From an uncultured Ruminococcus sp. (lineage in GTDB: Bacteria; Bacillota; Clostridia; Oscillospirales; Ruminococcaceae), in contig CAMWLD010000018.1 of the NCBI GenBank assembly GCA_947175005.1, positions 1 to 15,429 of the forward strand: a stretch of 15,429 nt of DNA, given 5' to 3'. Positions within the stretch are counted from its first letter, which is position 1, and each line of letters starts with the position of its first letter. Under the pieces are notes generated by a model. It made no database searches, was not told the DNA's origin, and was given only the letters and a program-made list of their open reading frames with translations. Both the position numbers and the translations under genes were made by a program. Of the stretch, positions 5,302 to 12,005 are shown piece by piece.

Positions 5302-6840
5302 TTACTTGAGAACAATGAGGTAAGGACCGCCTGCGGTAACAGTGAATGTTGTGCTGCCGTCGGACTGAACCTTTGCCTTGCTTACGCCCTTAAGGGAGTT
5401 AGCGTCGGGATCGTAACGGTATACAACTGCCGTGCAGCCCGCTCTTTCGGAATTGAACTTAACGGTAACGTTAGCCTTTGAGCCGAAGCTGTCAAAGTTG
5501 GAGGAAACGCCGATCTGAGCCTTTCCTACAGCGTCCTTGGAAGCTTTCTTAACAAGGCTGTCGGGAATGTACTTGATGTTGTACTCGGTATAAACGATCA
5601 TATCCTTGGGAGTGGTAACGTTCTTACCGTTTACAGTCCACTTAACACCGTTATCAAGAACAAATGTAACACTTACATTCTTGCCGTCGATAGCCTCAAG
5701 AACGTCCTTGCTTACCTCGTAAGAGCCGTTCATATTTACCTTGATGGTGCTGCCGCTGGCTGCTGCCTTGGCATACTTAACAATGGTATCCCAGCCTGCT
5801 CTGTTCTTCTTGCCGTAGATGTAAGGCTCGCCGTCCTCGGCTTCTCTGGTGGAAGATGAGGATGTTTCATTCTTGTTTGCAAGCTGATTTCTGAAAGTGA
5901 AGTAGGGATCATTGAAAGTATAGATGTTGCCGTATCCGTAAGGATAGAGATAATTATAGTTGTAGCCATAATCATAGCCGTAACCATAGTTTACACCGTA
6001 GTAGCCGTAGGGAACGTAGGTAATATCTGTGCCAAGGGCTGTGCCGCCTGCATTCTGAGCTGCCTGGAGGCTGCCGTAATATGTGCCGTTGTAATAGTAA
6101 TAATAAGTGGTGTCACCGGTAGAACCGTAGGGAGTGTAGAAAATATCCACGCCCAATGCTGTACCGCCTGCCTTGATAGCGTCCTCAAGAGTACCGTAGT
6201 AAACGCCGTTGTAACGGTATCTGTAGATAGAGCCGGGAGTATAATTATAGTTGGGATAATATCCTGTGTTATGCTGGGTAACCTTGCTGCTGTCATAGTT
6301 GGATGCAGCAAGAGCAGCGCTGTAGGTGCTGTATCTGAGACCTGTTACCGAGCTTACATAATAGGTATAACCATAATAAGAGTTACTGTAATAGGGTATT
6401 TCCTTTACATAGGAAGCAATCCCGTAGGAGTGGTTCAAAGCCTCGGAATATGTAGGATAATAGGACTTTGTGACATCGCTGTACCACCATGAGGATGTTG
6501 AAGTTGTGGGCAAAGAACCGTTGTATGTGCCTTTGTATGCAAGGTTTGCATCTGCTGCACCGGCAGCAATTGCATCAGCCTGGCTGTTATAATATGAATT
6601 TTTGTCTGCCGAATACCATACAGCGCTTGTTTTGGGAACGTTGCTTGCGGGTACAGAAGTAACCTTTGAGCCGTCAACACTTCCTATTGCGCGCCATGCA
6701 TCAGTAAGGGAACCGTAGTAAACACCGTTGTAGTAATAGTACCAACCGCTGACATCATCAGCAGAAGCGTAAATTGCCATGCCCTGAGCCGCCAAAGCTG
6801 CTGCACAGGCAATCGCAGCGATTTTTCTTCTTATTTTCAT
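5302..6840 (-). CDS. Secreted tyrosine-rich repeat protein with C-terminal beta domain
   Basis: The 512-residue product starts with a classical signal peptide (MKIRRKIAAIACAAALAAQG, cleavage predicted after ASA at residue 27). Residues about 28-285 are built from roughly six imperfect repeats of about 40 residues; the clearest are YYYYNGVYYGSLTDAWRAIG, RYNGVYYGTLEDAIKAGGTA and YYNGTYYGSLQAAQNAGGTA. A Tyr/Gly-dense strip (YGYGYDYGYNYNYLYPYGYG) and a Ser/Thr/Glu linker follow. The last 165 or so residues (from NRAGWDTIVKYAK) form a different domain, with DVLEAIDGKNVSVTFVLDNG and a final VTAGGPYLIVL, of a type I recall at the ends of clostridial extracellular proteins. No LPXTG, dockerin or S-layer motif is visible, so the anchoring is unclear. 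AAAGGAG precedes the ATG. Function unknown; adhesion or matrix role is inference. Confidence 0.82.
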   Translation of the reverse strand: MKIRRKIAAIACAAALAAQGMAIYASADDVSGWYYYYNGVYYGSLTDAWRAIGSVDGSKVTSVPASNVPKTSAVWYSADKNSYYNSQADAIAAGAADANLAYKGTYNGSLPTTSTSSWWYSDVTKSYYPTYSEALNHSYGIASYVKEIPYYSNSYYGYTYYVSSVTGLRYSTYSAALAASNYDSSKVTQHNTGYYPNYNYTPGSIYRYRYNGVYYGTLEDAIKAGGTALGVDIFYTPYGSTGDTTYYYYYNGTYYGSLQAAQNAGGTALGTDITYVPYGYYGVNYGYGYDYGYNYNYLYPYGYGNIYTFNDPYFTFRNQLANKNETSSSSTREAEDGEPYIYGKKNRAGWDTIVKYAKAAASGSTIKVNMNGSYEVSKDVLEAIDGKNVSVTFVLDNGVKWTVNGKNVTTPKDMIVYTEYNIKYIPDSLVKKASKDAVGKAQIGVSSNFDSFGSKANVTVKFNSERAGCTAVVYRYDPDANSLKGVSKAKVQSDGSTTFTVTAGGPYLIVLK

Positions 6841-7825: not shown

Positions 7826-7988
7826 CAAAAATAAATCCCGCCTTGCCGCCATGTGGCGAATAAAACCCGCACGCAGCAGGTGGGTGACAGCCCCTCGGTT
7901 TCACGCTCCCTGCGTCCGTAGCTCCGCACATCTAATGCGGCGGGAGGTCTGCAATCCGTCGAGGGAGACTGAATCCCTAATAAAAAGT
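7826..7988 (-). ncRNA. ssrS: Probable 6S RNA (SsrS)-like structured RNA
   Basis: The minus strand carries about 165 nt of GC-rich sequence that is incompatible with its AT-rich surroundings and is not well explained as coding. It can form an irregular long stem (CCCUCG near 7965 with CGAGGG near 7895), an inner CUCCC/GGGAG pairing and an apical hairpin CCGCAU...GUGCGG (7940-7924). The 3' part, CACCCACCUG then GCGGGUU then GGCGGCAAGGCGGGA, resembles from memory the 3' arm of bacterial 6S RNAs (E. coli has a comparable CACCUU...GGGUU...GGCGGCA order). A promoter lies at the right distance and a U-rich run follows at about 7835-7825. 6S RNA imitates an open promoter and sequesters sigma-A RNA polymerase. 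It could instead be a leader of the 7080-7718 gene. Confidence 0.55.
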
Positions 7989-7993
7989 GTTGG

Positions 7994-8020
7994 ATTATAA
8001 AACCACACTTTATCGGTCAA
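7994..8020 (-). promoter_or_regulatory. Promoter of the 6S-like RNA
   Basis: On the minus strand TTGACC (8020-8015) and a perfect TATAAT (7999-7994) are separated by only 15 bp (16 if read as CTTGAC), shorter than optimal. The predicted start is near 7987, matching the upstream end of the structured RNA. Confidence 0.5.
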
Positions 8021-8128
8021 GGCAGAATATATCTTGTTTACATTAGTATATCACAGCGGGGGCAAAAAATCAATGTGCCTTTTTCGGTAAATTTAACGGC
8101 ATGATTTGGTAATTTTGCATAAAAAACC

Positions 8129-8422
8129 TTATTCGTCGTCGTAGATCTCCGAAAGTCTGTCCATAAAAATTTTACCTATGCGTTCATACTCTTCATCATC
8201 GTCAATGGTAGCCAAGGTTTCCTCGCCGTTTTCGTCCTCCTCGCTGCGAAGGACTACCAGCTCTGTGTCCGCCTCTGCCATTTCCTCGGGATTGTCATAA
8301 TAAGGAACCAGCGCATAATAAAGCTGATCGTCCTCCTCATAAGTGTCCATAAGCTCAAAGACCTGCTCCTCCCCGTCCTCGTCGACCAGGGTATAAAGGT
8401 CAAAACCTTCAAATTCAGCCAT
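8129..8422 (-). CDS. DUF1292 (YrzB-like) small acidic protein
   Basis: The 97-residue protein is extremely acidic and begins MAEFEGFDLYTLVDEDGEEQ, then FELMDTYEEDDQLYYALVPY and VVLRSEEDENGEETLATIDD, the recognisable pattern of the Firmicutes DUF1292 family (B. subtilis YrzB). The function of the family is not known; in many Firmicutes it sits with alaS/yrrK (Holliday-junction resolvase-like) genes, which are absent here, so this copy is alone. AAGGAGG lies nine bases before the ATG. It has its own sigma-A promoter (8577-8605) and an approximately 148-nt leader containing a pair of palindromes (8523-8552), so it may be regulated. I saw no clear terminator downstream. Confidence 0.85.
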   Translation of the reverse strand: MAEFEGFDLYTLVDEDGEEQVFELMDTYEEDDQLYYALVPYYDNPEEMAEADTELVVLRSEEDENGEETLATIDDDEEYERIGKIFMDRLSEIYDDE

Positions 8423-8664: not shown

Positions 8665-8693
8665 TTGACATTTACCAAAAGATATGATATTAT
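8665..8693 (+). promoter_or_regulatory. Strong extended sigma-A promoter of the mini-ORF transcript
   Basis: TTGACA (8665-8670), a 17-bp spacer and TATTAT (8688-8693) preceded by the TGn extension (TGA, 8685-8687) predict a strong start near 8700. No conventional gene follows for 1.7 kb, which makes the 8700-10226 unit an intended transcript. Confidence 0.8.
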
Positions 8694-8715
8694 ATAAACA
8701 AGGAAAAGGAAACAA

Positions 8716-8727
8716 CCCGAAAACGGG
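8716..8727 (+). other. Small hairpin at the 5' end of the mini-ORF transcript
   Basis: CCCG-AAAA-CGGG begins about 16 nt after the predicted transcription start. A 5' hairpin of this kind could protect the RNA end. Confidence 0.4.
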
Positions 8728-8756
8728 AACGGGCAATTCGGAGGCGAAGGCTTCCA

Positions 8757-8816
8757 ATGCCGAACAAGAAGTTCCGAGCAAAGGGGTTTCCGGTGAATCC
8801 TAAAACGGCGGAGTAA
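8757..8816 (+). CDS. Micro-ORF 1: 19-residue basic peptide
   Basis: ATG CCG ... TAA encodes MPNKKFRAKGFPVNPKTAE, strongly basic. Upstream GGAGGC-GAAG-GCTTCC (8740-8755) contains the ribosome-binding sequence and can fold on itself just before the ATG. First module of the array. Confidence 0.4.
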   Translation: MPNKKFRAKGFPVNPKTAE

Positions 8817-8868
8817 CAATAAAATTAAGTTGCAATCCGCAATAAGTTTGGAAAGGAAGGCGAGTCCC

Positions 8869-8955
8869 ATGGCGATAGCAGATAGCACTTCACAGCAGTT
8901 TTTCGGGATATCCCGCAGCGGCTCGCATATATCAAAGCTTTCGGAAAAGCGTTGA
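8869..8955 (+). CDS. Micro-ORF 2: 28-residue peptide
   Basis: Starts MAIADSTSQQFF and ends SKLSEKR before TGA. AAAGGAAGG precedes, and GAGTCCC-ATGGC shows the shared start context. The frame includes the palindrome CGGGATATCCCG (8904-8915). Confidence 0.4.
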   Translation: MAIADSTSQQFFGISRSGSHISKLSEKR

Positions 8956-8982
8956 ATCGGAGTTTAAAGGAAATCATAATTA

Positions 8983-9075
8983 ATGTATGATCACTCCGGG
9001 TACTTGAAATTACAAACGCTTTCATTTCCGGGCGAATATAAAGCTGATAATGAGCCGCACGTCAAAGCAAATTGA
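8983..9075 (+). CDS. Micro-ORF 3: 30-residue peptide
   Basis: Starts MYDHSGYLKLQTLSF and ends EPHVKAN before TGA. AAAGG lies 12 bases upstream. Its stop overlaps the next start in TGATG. An alternative ATG at 8987 gives MITPGT, which recalls the MITRG peptides of the later cassettes and may be a diverged third copy. Confidence 0.35.
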   Translation: MYDHSGYLKLQTLSFPGEYKADNEPHVKAN

Positions 9076-9170
9076 TGGGCGGAATTTTTATATACTGTAC
9101 ATCGTGCGCTATGCACAGCAGTGTATCGGAAAGGTCGATACAAGCGGGACATCCCACAAAATCTTATTAA
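9075..9170 (+). CDS. Micro-ORF 4: 31-residue peptide, overlaps micro-ORF 3
   Basis: Starts MGGIFIYCTSCAMHSSV and ends HPTKSY before TAA. The TGATG overlap (9073-9077) is a classical translational-coupling arrangement, although no separate ribosome-binding site precedes it. Inside, GTATCG (9123-9128) and CGATAC (9136-9141) pair around a GAAAGGT loop. Confidence 0.35.
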   Translation: MGGIFIYCTSCAMHSSVSERSIQAGHPTKSY

Positions 9171-9189
9171 ATTAAAGAGGGTTGTGCCA

Positions 9190-9198
9190 ATGCAGTAA
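9190..9198 (+). CDS. Start-Gln-stop minigene
   Basis: ATG CAG TAA behind AGAGGGTTGTGCCA. The site has the same purine-rich run, then CC, then start layout as the start-Ala-stop elements further on. Confidence 0.3.
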   Translation: MQ

Positions 9199-9221
9199 TT
9201 TTGCATATATAGGCAGATTTC

Positions 9222-9240
9222 CGGCTTAATAAAACAGCCG
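9222..9240 (+). other. Hairpin CGGCT/AGCCG in the mini-ORF transcript
   Basis: CGGCT (9222-9226) and AGCCG (9236-9240) can pair around a nine-base loop. No T-run follows, so it is not a terminator. Confidence 0.4.
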
Positions 9241-9266
9241 TAATATAGATAAGCTAAAGCAAAGGA

Positions 9267-9293
9267 GTGAGTCCAAAGGTTCATTCAGCATAG
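9267..9293 (+). CDS. GTG-started 8-codon frame MSPKVHSA (cassette A)
   Basis: GTG AGT CCA AAG GTT CAT TCA GCA TAG. Cassette B has the same nine-codon frame with two silent third-base changes and one Val to Gly. Against translation, AAAGGA abuts the GTG, and an in-frame TAA lies 12 bases upstream so no other start exists. Confidence 0.25.
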   Translation: MSPKVHSA

Positions 9294-9332
9294 CTTCCGA
9301 GTAAAGCTTATTTAAGAAGGGATCTGATTATT

Positions 9333-9368
9333 ATGATTACAAGAGGTTTTTACGACAGGAATATTTGA
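9333..9368 (+). CDS. 11-residue peptide MITRGFYDRNI, copy A
   Basis: ATG ATT ACA AGA GGT TTT TAC GAC AGG AAT ATT TGA, preceded by AAGAAGGGATCTGATTATT, with AAGGG as a ribosome-binding site about 11 bases upstream. Copy B at 9773 encodes the identical peptide with GAT for GAC and TAG for TGA, and keeps the GGATCTGAT lead-in. I know no characterised peptide of this sequence. Confidence 0.55.
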   Translation: MITRGFYDRNI

Positions 9369-9375
9369 GCATTGT

Positions 9376-9426
9376 GCCGCAGGCGGGTGCGTAGAGTGCC
9401 TGTAAAGCAAGCAGAAATGCGGCGGC
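9376..9426 (+). other. Structured spacer with GAAA tetraloop, cassette A
   Basis: GCCGC (9376-9380) can pair with GCGGC (9422-9426), enclosing CAGGC/GCCTG and the GCA-GAAA-TGC hairpin (9411-9420). Cassette B keeps GTGCCGC, the GCAGAAATGC hairpin and a compensating partner at 9814-9848, although the rest has diverged. Confidence 0.4.
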
Positions 9427-9494
9427 GGGAATTTGTGGACCAAAGTGTTCACGGGAAATTTATGAAACGAGGAACGGTCCAATGGCATAGTTAA
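9417..9494 (+). CDS. Alternative 25-codon frame over the first start-Ala-stop of cassette A
   Basis: Starts MRRREFVDQSVHGKF and ends GTVQWHS before TAA, overlapping the start-Ala-stop at 9482 in another frame. Cassette B does not preserve this frame, so it is probably chance. Confidence 0.15.
   Translation: MRRREFVDQSVHGKFMKRGTVQWHS
9482..9490 (+). CDS. Start-Ala-stop minigene 1
   Basis: ATG GCA TAG behind GAGGAACGGTCCA. The surrounding GAGGAA(C/A)GGTCCAATGGCATAGTT block is repeated at 9909. Confidence 0.45.
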   Translation: MA

Positions 9495-9552
9495 AATATA
9501 TGCAGGTTTCTTTGCAATATGAACACTGAATAAAAATTGGGAGTTGTTTCCG

Positions 9553-9561
9553 ATGGCATAA
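9553..9561 (+). CDS. Start-Ala-stop minigene 2
   Basis: ATG GCA TAA behind GGGAGTTGTTTCCG. GATCG (9569-9573) and CGATC (9580-9584) form a small hairpin just after it. Confidence 0.45.
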   Translation: MA

Positions 9562-9564
9562 TTA

Positions 9565-9633
9565 ATGCGATCGTTCAAGCGATCTTATATCGCAAATAAA
9601 ATAAACGGAGGTTACGGCTTTCGGCTTCTTTAA
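9565..9633 (+). CDS. 22-residue basic frame after minigene 2
   Basis: Starts MRSFKRSYIANKINGG and ends YGFRLL before TAA. The ATG lies four bases after the stop of minigene 2, so it could be reached by reinitiation. Cassette B has no counterpart. Confidence 0.2.
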   Translation: MRSFKRSYIANKINGGYGFRLL

Positions 9634-9662
9634 TAAAATCAGAGCAATGATACTGTAAGGGA

Positions 9663-9689
9663 GTGAGTCCAAAAGGACATTCAGCGTAG
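9663..9689 (+). CDS. GTG-started 8-codon frame MSPKGHSA (cassette B)
   Basis: GTG AGT CCA AAA GGA CAT TCA GCG TAG, the counterpart of 9267-9293. AAGGGA directly abuts the GTG, which is poor spacing for initiation. Confidence 0.25.
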   Translation: MSPKGHSA

Positions 9690-9720
9690 CTTTGCTGCAG
9701 ATTTGCCGGTCTTACAAAGT

Positions 9721-9740
9721 CTGCGGACGGTTTTCCGCAG
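9721..9740 (+). other. Hairpin CTGCGGA/TCCGCAG, cassette B only
   Basis: A 7-bp stem (9721-9727 with 9734-9740) with a six-base loop lies between the GTG frame and copy B of the 11-residue peptide. It accounts for part of the longer spacing here than in cassette A. Confidence 0.45.
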
Positions 9741-9772
9741 GTCATAGGTTTACCCCGAAAGGATCTGATACT

Positions 9773-9808
9773 ATGATTACAAGAGGTTTTTACGATAGGA
9801 ATATTTAG
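9773..9808 (+). CDS. 11-residue peptide MITRGFYDRNI, copy B
   Basis: Identical peptide to 9333-9368, with a silent GAC to GAT change. The stop changes from TGA to TAG, explainable by one deleted G in TTTGAGCA. AAAGGATCTGATACT precedes it. Confidence 0.55.
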   Translation: MITRGFYDRNI

Positions 9809-9813
9809 CAAAC

Positions 9814-9848
9814 GTGCCGCCTCGGTAATGCAGAAATGCTTGCGGTAC
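9814..9848 (+). other. Structured spacer with GAAA tetraloop, cassette B
   Basis: GTGCCGC (9814-9820) pairs with GCGGTAC (9842-9848, one G-U) around the GCA-GAAA-TGC hairpin (9830-9839), paralleling 9376-9426. Confidence 0.4.
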
Positions 9849-9917
9849 GGTGTGAATGTGAGTTGTCAGTTACAGCTTCACTATCCTAACGAAATGAGGA
9901 AAGGTCCAATGGCATAG
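9828..9917 (+). CDS. Alternative 29-codon frame ending at start-Ala-stop 3
   Basis: Starts MQKCLRYGVNVSCQLQLH and ends NEMRKGPMA before TAG, in the same frame as the ATG GCA TAG at 9909. No ribosome-binding site is visible and cassette A has no matching frame; probably chance. Confidence 0.15.
   Translation: MQKCLRYGVNVSCQLQLHYPNEMRKGPMA
9909..9917 (+). CDS. Start-Ala-stop minigene 3
   Basis: ATG GCA TAG behind GAGGAAAGGTCCA, the cassette B counterpart of 9482. Confidence 0.45.
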   Translation: MA

Positions 9918-9963
9918 TTCAAATTTTCATTCGATCAAATTTAAATGTTAGGAGTTGTTCCCC

Positions 9964-9972
9964 ATGGCTTGA
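9964..9972 (+). CDS. Start-Ala-stop minigene 4
   Basis: ATG GCT TGA behind AGGAGTTGTTCCCC, the counterpart of 9553 with a synonymous Ala codon and a different stop. TTGATC and GATCAA pair just downstream. Confidence 0.45.
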   Translation: MA

Positions 9973-10031
9973 TTAAATTGATCGTTCATATGATCAACGA
10001 TATCGGATTTTAAAGAAAGGAATTTAGACCA

Positions 10032-10040
10032 ATGGCTTAG
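10032..10040 (+). CDS. Start-Ala-stop minigene 5
   Basis: ATG GCT TAG behind AAAGAAAGGAATTTAGACCA. It lies outside cassettes A and B, so the motif has spread or been kept independently. Confidence 0.4.
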   Translation: MA

Positions 10041-10103
10041 GTTTACTTTGGTATCTGATACCGCTTCAAGCGTCAAGTTTCCGAAATTATAATATGGAGG
10101 ATA

Positions 10104-10121
10104 ATGCTTTCACTTAATTGA
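10104..10121 (+). CDS. Five-codon frame MLSLN
   Basis: ATG CTT TCA CTT AAT TGA behind GGAGG, with only three bases between, which is very short. It lacks the TCC and ATGGC features of the others. Confidence 0.2.
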   Translation: MLSLN

Positions 10122-10156
10122 TTAAATTAAAATTTCACGAATTGGAGTTGTTTCCA

Positions 10157-10174
10157 ATGGCGATAAAAGGTTAG
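10157..10174 (+). CDS. Last micro-ORF: MAIKG
   Basis: ATG GCG ATA AAA GGT TAG behind TGGAGTTGTTTCCA, the third copy of the GGAGTTGTTTCC start site. It is the last module before the terminator. Confidence 0.4.
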   Translation: MAIKG

Positions 10175-10197
10175 TCTTTCATCATAAAAACACTCAG

Positions 10198-10226
10198 CCG
10201 CCCGCAGTTTCTGCGGGCGGTTTTTT
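10198..10226 (+). terminator. Strong terminator of the mini-ORF transcript
   Basis: A perfect 10-bp GC-rich stem CCGCCCGCAG (10198-10207) with CTGCGGGCGG (10211-10220), a three-base loop and six T (10221-10226). Confidence 0.93.
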
Positions 10227-10436: not shown

Positions 10437-11264
10437 ATGAATAAATTTACAATTTTGTCCCAGGCTCTTGATTTCATTGAGGAAAATCTCACAGGGGAGA
10501 TCACTCCCGAAATGTGCGCCGAGAAATGCTGCTATTCACTTTCAAATCTCCAGAAAATGTTCCGCTGCGCCTTTCATATAGGCATTGCGGACTACATTTC
10601 CCGCCGCAGGCTCACTATGGCGGCAAGAGAGCTTATCGAAACAACCGGCACCGTTCTCGAGATCGCACTGAAATACGGCTACAATTCCCACGAGGTCTTT
10701 ACCCGTGCATTTGTGCGGCTGTGGGGAGTAACACCCAAGGAATTTCGCAAAAGCAGCGGATTTTACGAGATCTACCCCAAGCTGGCGGAGTTCAGGACAA
10801 TGACCGACGAAAGGGGAAATATTATGAGTTTATGGCGAAGATTTGATGTTTCGCACCTGTACGATTTCATCTGCGAGCGCAGAGGCAAATATGTCCTGTG
10901 CTTTGATATGGTGGGCTTGCTGTATATCAACGATACCTACGGCAGAGCGGCAGGAGATATTGCCATTGCCGAGGGACTGCGGCGTATGGACAGCGCCGCC
11001 GAAGAAGGTATGCTGCCGATACGCATAGGCGGAGACGAGTTTGTGCTGATAACCGATCTGTCCGACAGAGAAGCTGCGCAAAAGCTTATGGAAAAGATAC
11101 TCAGTGAAAACGGAAAAATGTGCGTTTCGGGAAATTCTGAATTTCCCGTATCCATGCGCGCGGATATTGACGTGATACCCGACAAGGGAACTATCCGCTA
11201 CAACGAGCTTTTTGAAAAGCTGTACATTTCCTGTTACAATGCAGAGCATAAAGACCAGAAATAA
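10437..11264 (+). CDS. AraC-type HTH fused to a GGDEF domain
   Basis: The 275-residue protein has an N-terminal AraC/XylS double helix-turn-helix (about residues 8-105: ITPEMCAEKCCYSLSNLQKM, then EIALKYGYNSHEVFTRAFVR and GVTPKEFRK). A C-terminal domain (about 150-270) carries an intact GGDEF loop (IRIGGDEFVLI, residues 196-205). Asp157, Asn165 and Asp174 align with metal- and guanine-contacting residues of diguanylate cyclases, but the usual D-x-F-K is V-G-L-L, so the phosphate-contacting Lys is missing, and no RxxD inhibitory site precedes GGDEF. It may bind GTP or have weak cyclase activity. No membrane segment. A likely transcription factor sensing or making nucleotide signals; the flagellar genes converge on it. 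A weak ribosome-binding site only (TGGTGATAAT) precedes the ATG. Confidence 0.8.
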   Translation: MNKFTILSQALDFIEENLTGEITPEMCAEKCCYSLSNLQKMFRCAFHIGIADYISRRRLTMAARELIETTGTVLEIALKYGYNSHEVFTRAFVRLWGVTPKEFRKSSGFYEIYPKLAEFRTMTDERGNIMSLWRRFDVSHLYDFICERRGKYVLCFDMVGLLYINDTYGRAAGDIAIAEGLRRMDSAAEEGMLPIRIGGDEFVLITDLSDREAAQKLMEKILSENGKMCVSGNSEFPVSMRADIDVIPDKGTIRYNELFEKLYISCYNAEHKDQK

Positions 11265-11937: not shown

Positions 11938-12005
11938 GGCTAAATTTATTCAGAGGCTAAATTTATTTAGAGGCTAAATTTATTTAGAGGCTAAATTTAT
12001 TTAGC
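11938..12005. repeat. Four-copy 17-bp tandem repeat overlapping the fliS stop
   Basis: Four units of ggctaaatttatttaga (11938-11954, 11955-11971, 11972-11988, 11989-12005) differ at only one internal base plus the final one. Each unit contains the near-palindrome CTAAAT-TT-ATTTAG. The rightmost unit covers the last codons and stop of fliS. Confidence 0.93.

Follow-up and report, generated by a model that had tools for sequence, protein, structure and literature searches.

A stretch of 15,429 nucleotides from an uncultured Ruminococcus sp. (NCBI GenBank assembly GCA_947175005.1, contig CAMWLD010000018.1, forward strand), here denoted the window, carries at positions 8665-10226 a bounded unit filled with a series of very short reading frames. 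This is very probably a conserved, functional RNA unit packed with translation signals, and its sequence suggests that 8700-10226 encodes a single long RNA that deals with ribosomes. Our preferred reading, to which we assign a probability of roughly 40%, is that this RNA engages ribosomes by means of a translation-gated attenuator and a capture array. The layout of the unit, its conservation and its helices were established computationally, and its expression and function are proposed from them. The same design is kept in relatives, which suggests a so far unrecognised kind of ribosome-engaging RNA. A broader claim, which we consider doubtful, is that the unit represents a new chromosomal RNA class, found in many Clostridia of gut and rumen that belong to one order, in which ribosome supply would be sensed at a gating start codon and free 30S subunits would be buffered at start-stop and start-less sites that fit the entire 16S tail.

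A bounded unit of serial start sites

The original prediction for this DNA had placed a promoter at one end of the unit and a terminator at the other, and both are present. The promoter, TTGACA-17-TGnTATTAT with an extended -10 element (8665-8693, + strand, as are all features of the unit given below), agrees with the consensus at 11 of 12 positions and ties for the best among 17 promoter-like sites found between 8000 and 10600, where shuffled sequences led us to expect 7.4. It is conserved across 14 aligned loci, being found in all 13 loci other than the window. Transcription would start near 8700. The final intrinsic terminator (10196-10226) consists of a stem, which we count as 12 pairs (10196-10222), followed by T's. 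A second, internal terminator-like hairpin at 9052-9089 is absent from the list produced by the consensus terminator scan. All frames of the unit are stop-rich, and an internal duplication is evident from repeats spaced 396-441 nt apart.

We scanned the unit for a Shine-Dalgarno (SD) core (AGGA, GGAG, GAGG or AAGG) with an ATG 4-13 nt downstream, using 40 dinucleotide shuffles as control. The scan found 13 such sites, compared with 4.2 ± 2.1 in the shuffles (maximum 10) and none on the opposite strand, and the frames that they open are 2, 2, 2, 2, 2, 2, 5, 5, 11, 11, 19, 28 and 30 codons long. The predicted figures, about 14 sites and frames of 2-31 codons, were therefore close, and two regular elements without an ATG stand beside these sites. 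The series begins with a leader frame of 19 codons (8757-8816), which is kept in G006, the sole relative checked for it. The site scan and the comparison with G006 further define a micro-frame encoding MQ (9190-9198), five micro-frames encoding MA (9482-9490, 9553-9561, 9909-9917, 9964-9972 and 10032-10040, the third of which has three codons in G006), a micro-frame of 5 codons (10104-10121) and one encoding MAIKG (10157-10174). The nearest relative lacks the 30-codon frame at ATG 8983, which could be incidental.

An array set of 25 arrays from 24 genomes (30.3 kb; those of G005, G009 and G018 are cut by contig ends and G201 has a run of N) gave a similar picture. These arrays hold 263 ribosome sites with an ATG where 93 are expected, and 16 on the antisense strand. 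No more than 4 codons are found in 105 of the 257 complete frames, and no more than 12 in 196; in shuffles, these classes make up 21.5% and 51.3%. Frames of at most 4 codons make up 78 of the 118 behind UCC-ATG versus 27 of the 139 behind other sites. With a relaxed scan we counted 112 frames of this length, 25 of them Met-Ala, ending in TAA (55), TGA (41) or TAG (16). Frames such as those of the arrays are shorter than gene finders usually report. If the array is translated, a long transcript is maintained though two frames in five are too short for a product, and its purpose would therefore lie at least partly in initiation.

Comparison of five pairs of related arrays demonstrated that ribosome-site cores, UCC, starts and stops changed at 41 of 601 positions versus 975 of 5237 elsewhere. 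Of the window's 13 starts, 12 recur in G006; 11 of them open frames of unchanged length, and the remaining frame goes from 2 to 3 codons. These comparisons support the view that the unit is kept by selection. A decayed gene or frameshifted remnant would explain why all frames are stop-rich, yet the relatives that we read hold similar arrays, the sites are under selection, and a long intact gene replacing the array was seen in none of the 26 array genomes read. Decay, to which we give practically no weight, is thus ruled out by the arrays in relatives together with the conservation of sites, and the original view of a bounded unit that is not a decaying gene is upheld.

An extended match to the 16S rRNA tail

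The repeated element of the arrays is AAGGAG-UGA-G-UCC, in which UGAGUCC lengthens, at many sites, the match to the 3' tail of 16S ribosomal RNA (rRNA). We take the complement of this tail to be AAGGAGGUGAUCC; with it, the element pairs leaving one bulge per side. Duplexes with the tail of -12 kcal/mol or lower number 260 on the sense strand, 14 on the antisense strand and 82 in one shuffle per array. UCC lies 0-2 nt ahead of the ATG at 41% of 238 distinct array sites. The figure is 1% for 299 ordinary starts, which belong to frames of 250 codons or more in the loci collected and were picked by their best ribosome site, and the GGAUCA end of the tail contributes 3.4 kcal/mol at array sites versus 1.2 at ordinary starts. 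TGAnTCC itself occurs 86 times in the sense and once in the antisense direction of the arrays. A mini-hairpin between GGA and UCC was considered as an explanation of the UCC and deemed too weak, at an estimated 2-3 pairs.

Many TGAnTCC elements precede ACA, AAA or CC and have no ATG. Two window elements of the form GGAGTGAGTCC are among the most regular and likewise have no ATG behind them; these are GGAGUGAGUCC at 9264-9274 and GGGAGUGAGUCC at 9659-9670, identified by reading, as parts of the internal repeat and in the 16S-duplex scan. Such start-less elements, together with the conserved G of UGAGUCC and the covarying helices described below, would suit a structured RNA acting as scaffold or regulator, in which the GGAGUGAGUCC elements bind a protein or RNA partner and the likeness to ribosome sites and the short frames are partly by-products. 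Conservation of the ATG, the same frame length in G006 for 11 of 12 kept starts and the use of all three stop codons argue against this explanation, which we hold to be rather improbable.

A conserved 5' domain and a proposed start-codon switch

Ahead of most of the array lies a conserved 5' domain (8848-8998; 33 members aligned), made of an opening frame, F1, and two helices and described by the covariance models R1 and R2. F1 (8869-8955) has 28 codons and encodes MAIADSTSQQFFGISRSGSHISKLSEKR. Related frames in other arrays have 17-28 codons, usually start with MA-, ME- or MS-, and often contain EQQF or REF and then SGS. In helix 1, the 5' arm CGAGUC (8861-8866), immediately ahead of the F1 AUG, pairs with GGCUCG near the end of F1. 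According to pair counts and pairing analyses, the 3' arm, GCGGCUCGC (8918-8926), has two alternative partners, 8861-8866 or 9052-9058. Helix 2 (8959-8997) joins GGAGU (8959-8963) to ACUCC (8993-8997), with 98.1% of cells paired, three of five pairs changed on both sides, and GGAAGU/ACUUCC among its variants.

Covariation, which the original prediction had named as a check, speaks for these helices. In a model-fitted alignment of 33 sequences, 93.1% of the cells are paired, compared with at most 45.5% for slid-helix controls, and 6 of 14 pairs show change on both sides, a value reached by 2 of 500 shuffles; further pair types are not above the shuffles (201 of 500). An unfitted alignment of 14 sequences shows two-sided change in 2 of the 9 pairs of helix 1, by one sequence each. 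When aligning the 5' domain, MAFFT misplaces bases at the start codon of G000 and G006, and the later model-based alignment is biased toward structure. In G003 three strands change together (UGAGUC / GCGGCUCA / UGAGACCGC).

The third of the strands involved in the proposed switch is the 5' side, GAGCCGC, of the terminator-like hairpin with its T-run (9052-9089), which complements the F1 3' arm; folding and pairing make this hairpin a candidate attenuator. A T-run lies 120-190 nt past the 3' arm in 27 of the 28 loci given. The best partner of the arm is the 5' side of the downstream T-run hairpin in 23 of the 27 loci that could be scored; the match beats 95% of shuffles in 14 of the 27, and both conditions hold in 13. 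In 22 of 27 loci, the base of the hairpin was less paired in folds with the F1 start blocked than in those with the 3' arm held, a result partly built into the complementarity. Holding the arm gave 2.9 or more base pairs at the foot of the hairpin in 24 of 27 loci. We therefore regard the attenuator switch as a moderately supported proposal.

We propose the following regulatory sequence. A 30S subunit on the F1 start would free the 3' arm GCGGCUCG, which would pair with the 5' side of the terminator-like hairpin and let the polymerase continue. With the F1 start unoccupied, the arm would be held by CGAGUC and transcription would stop early. The downstream array would capture initiating 30S subunits at sites whose complementarity to the 16S 3' tail is extended, the start-stop frames would make each ribosome engagement short and unproductive, and the start-less sites would retain 30S subunits in the absence of initiation. 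As a whole, the unit would be a sensor of ribosome capacity that produces a ribosome-titrating RNA. If true, this would amount to control of ribosome allocation at the RNA level, and the arrays would be a natural collection of minimal frames and extended SD sites. Three features go beyond what had been predicted for this DNA: the start-less elements, the longer pairing with the 16S tail, and the 5' domain that resembles an attenuator.

Several observations weigh against ribosome capture and its switch. The 16S-end pattern GGATCACCTCCTTT is found in 1 of 31 genomes, which is not the window's own, a count in which a missing 16S gene and a differing end are not told apart. The n of UGAnUCC is G in 72 of 83 classified elements although G would bulge against the 16S tail, and because of this the tail may not be the sole partner of the element. 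In 14 of 27 loci the match between arm and hairpin is either not the best or not above 95% of shuffles. In G008 and G167, holding the 3' arm leaves the hairpin base unpaired, and in G002 the base is then weak. The unconstrained fold of the window favours the antiterminator, lacking the start helix, so that its default would be read-through. The 3' arm reads GCGACUCG in L148, L151, L153 and G169, which breaks one antiterminator pair, and the stretch searched contains no T-run in L155 (R. flavefaciens), L157, L161 and L164. The pair G014-G001 shows no protection of aligned stops (11 of 22 positions changed). Finally, the micro-frame F2, described next, resembles a conserved peptide, something that an RNA acting purely as a ribosome sponge could do without.

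Peptide-like frames in the array

F2 (9333-9368) encodes MITRGFYDRNI, and a second F2, detected through the internal repeat and the F2 scan (9773-9808), encodes the same peptide with a synonymous change and a different stop codon. It belongs to a recurring 11-residue peptide, '..GFHDLN.', with 30 occurrences in 19 of 25 arrays (one frame of G167, with nested ATGs, is counted twice). In the motif G-F-H-D-L-N, H is found in 25 and D in 29 of the 30, and the second position is F or Y. The codons vary synonymously (CAC/CAT, GAT/GAC, CTG/TTG), and the stop codons differ. F2 was not seen in the loci read from genus g16 and family f13 (L157, L158 and L167). Were F2 a product, it would represent a recurrent micropeptide family, unlabelled so far.

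The main rival to the ribosome-capture reading is accordingly a micropeptide operon, that is, an mRNA for the F1 peptide and for the GFHDLN peptide, the latter in one to five copies, with the frames of 1-4 codons serving as spacers or coupling devices. The distribution of F2-like frames, with their synonymous changes and differing stops, speaks for it, as do the gaps of F1, which by eye keep the frame open in all 14 rows of an alignment, and the 152 of 257 frames that exceed four codons. Against it stand the 105 frames of at most 4 codons, which are too short for products and most frequent behind UCC-ATG, the three loci in which F2 was not seen, and the behaviour of the F1 end. There, the codons for SGS coincide with the RNA arm GGCUCG, and this arm lies in another reading frame in G213, R. 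flavefaciens, g16, f13 and f24. The C-terminal part reads SGS in some genera versus GLAE, RLAG or RRLV in others and so shifts frame between genera while the RNA helix remains constant. Because the frame of the arm differs between groups, it is the helix that is conserved and not the peptide end. Taking both sides together, we consider a micropeptide operon unlikely.

The original prediction had offered micropeptides, abortive translation or a scaffold RNA as possible roles. Its bounded unit stands; the three roles were not separated, as the arrays contain two peptide-like frames and also many frames of at most 4 codons.

Occurrence in relatives

A DNA search of 150 genomes, including the window's own, gave matches in 22 at E 0.01, part of them promoter-only or chance. 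The loci that we read share a recurrent layout of promoter, leader, F1, helix, terminator-like hairpin, array and terminator, and the promoter-array-terminator design, for which a search in related genomes had been suggested, thus recurs. Such arrays were read in 26 genomes, the 24 of the array set and those of L154 and L155. In one genome, G003 (L141), two array copies lie ~2 kb apart, the second being short.

At E 0.1, model R1, built from the 5' domain of 14 sequences, matched 42 of 294 genomes, and the weaker of these matches are unproved; the genera g3, g22, g134, g136 and g162 are among those matched with E <= 1.1e-5. Within the genus of the window, a related 5' domain occurs in 17 of the 20 genomes, namely the 14 from which R1 was built and 3 of 6 others (G001, G010 and G014), and R1 has no match in G007, G012 and G017 (80, 85 and 91% complete). 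Named records led to 16 genomes, 10 of which the model matched at E 0.05. The match to Ruminococcus flavefaciens XPD3002 was weak (E 0.038), and R. albus 8 had none at the 0.05 threshold.

Model R2, built from 33 sequences, matched 20 of 396 genomes sampled across the order at E 0.01; one of the order-wide matches, L169, is probably due to chance, since it sits at the beginning of a long frame. At E 0.05, R2 matched 43 of 60 genomes in the genus of G212 (29 of 33 good assemblies) and 7 of 61 genomes of family f13, 6 of these in a single genus. The XPD3002 and G212 loci were built into R2, and their R2 scores are not independent. We take the genus of G212 to be that of R. flavefaciens because the match in G607, a genome of the former, agrees in contig number and coordinates with that in XPD3002. 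The locus of XPD3002, a cultured strain (L155), contains a promoter, F1 with its helix, ribosome-site elements and a terminator. In the loci read from g16 and f13 (L157, L158 and L167), the form is short and consists only of F1, a few more sites and a terminator.

Comparison with known RNAs

None of the 4227 Rfam models reached its gathering cut-off in the array at any of 33 array loci; 6S RNA, tRNA and RNase P RNA were found only outside it. The best sub-threshold match in the window has 33.9 bits compared with a cut-off of 59, and such weak matches fall mostly on the last 150 bases, which include the terminator. Neither a tRNA nor a tmRNA was found in the window unit, and a tRNA or Rfam identity of the array was rejected for want of a qualifying match. 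A paper on such an array was not found among the matches listed in a literature search whose coverage excludes most subscription journals.

Like the array, sponge RNAs of the CsrB/RsmZ type carry many copies of a short GGA-containing site on a single molecule, by which a partner could be titrated, but the array sites have start codons, stops and the match to the 16S tail. The order within these sites is GGA, spacer, UCC, AUG. A CsrA sponge would fit the repeated GGA and the flagellar neighbours, which are fliS in the window and, beside it, a 965-residue frame that is fliD-like by reading. However, 9 of the 17 genomes of the genus that carry arrays have no CsrA match, including assemblies that are 100%, 97%, 97% and 93% complete, and this rules out a CsrA sponge as the general role; as an explanation we consider it most improbable.

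Leader-peptide attenuators of the trp type likewise have a short opening frame, alternative helices and a terminator-like hairpin. In the unit, by contrast, the proposed switch lies at the start codon and not at sense codons, and an array of micro-frames follows instead of biosynthetic genes. No downstream structural gene under control of the proposed attenuator was found, the unit having a final terminator and varying next genes. For the same reason a long leader that controls the next gene, an idea prompted by the attenuator-like 5' domain, is very unlikely: the end terminator is strong, and the following genes differ (AraC-GGDEF, other sequence, RNase P RNA in G169).

Start-stop minigenes of phages and plasmids share with the array a good ribosome site, an AUG, one or two codons and a stop, but here many of them form an array, present in one copy per genome and once in two. 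The large structured RNAs OLE, ROOL, GOLLD and raiA are also long, conserved and of unclear function; the array differs from them in having translation signals throughout and no Rfam match at gathering score.

In Staphylococcus aureus, cryo-electron microscopy and toeprints indicate SD pairing that is extended toward the start codon, according to a 2026 paper (PMC13009471). This is also a Gram-positive system with pairing beyond the canonical SD, although the sites there belong to genes and small upstream open reading frames, unlike the serial sites of the present RNA, which has no gene.

Neighbouring genes

Directly upstream of the array and divergent to it lies a DUF1292 gene (8129-8422, - strand). 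By reading, a DUF1292 gene stands beside the element also in R. flavefaciens (L155), G212 (L140) and several other relatives. A 6S RNA gene (7831-8031, - strand; 48 bits, cut-off 46.4) is divergent to the array as well, and 6S RNA above the gathering score occurs on the strand opposite the array in 10 of 33 array loci, including that of R. flavefaciens; flank lengths vary among these loci, and a missing 6S RNA says little.

The sequence downstream of the array varies, being a gene for an AraC-GGDEF protein in G000 and G006 and other sequence elsewhere. In G169 (L131) the gene that comes after the array, on the same strand, encodes RNase P RNA. The window's AraC-GGDEF gene (10437-11264, + strand) encodes a fusion of an AraC-type helix-turn-helix and a GGDEF domain, with relatives in 55 loci, mostly titled Ruminococcus, Oscillospiraceae or Clostridia. 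Control of this gene by the array was considered and rejected, as an array lies upstream in 1 of 32 homologue loci scanned for motifs of the window (L045, the record of G006); L060 and L069 have one stray motif each.

Farther away, 5302-6840 (- strand) encodes a Tyr-rich protein of 512 residues with repeated YYYNGxYYGSLxxA-like units, which, judging from its start, is perhaps secreted and has no Pfam match at E 0.001. A tandem repeat of 17 bases in 3.9 copies lies at 11938-12004, at the 3' end of fliS.

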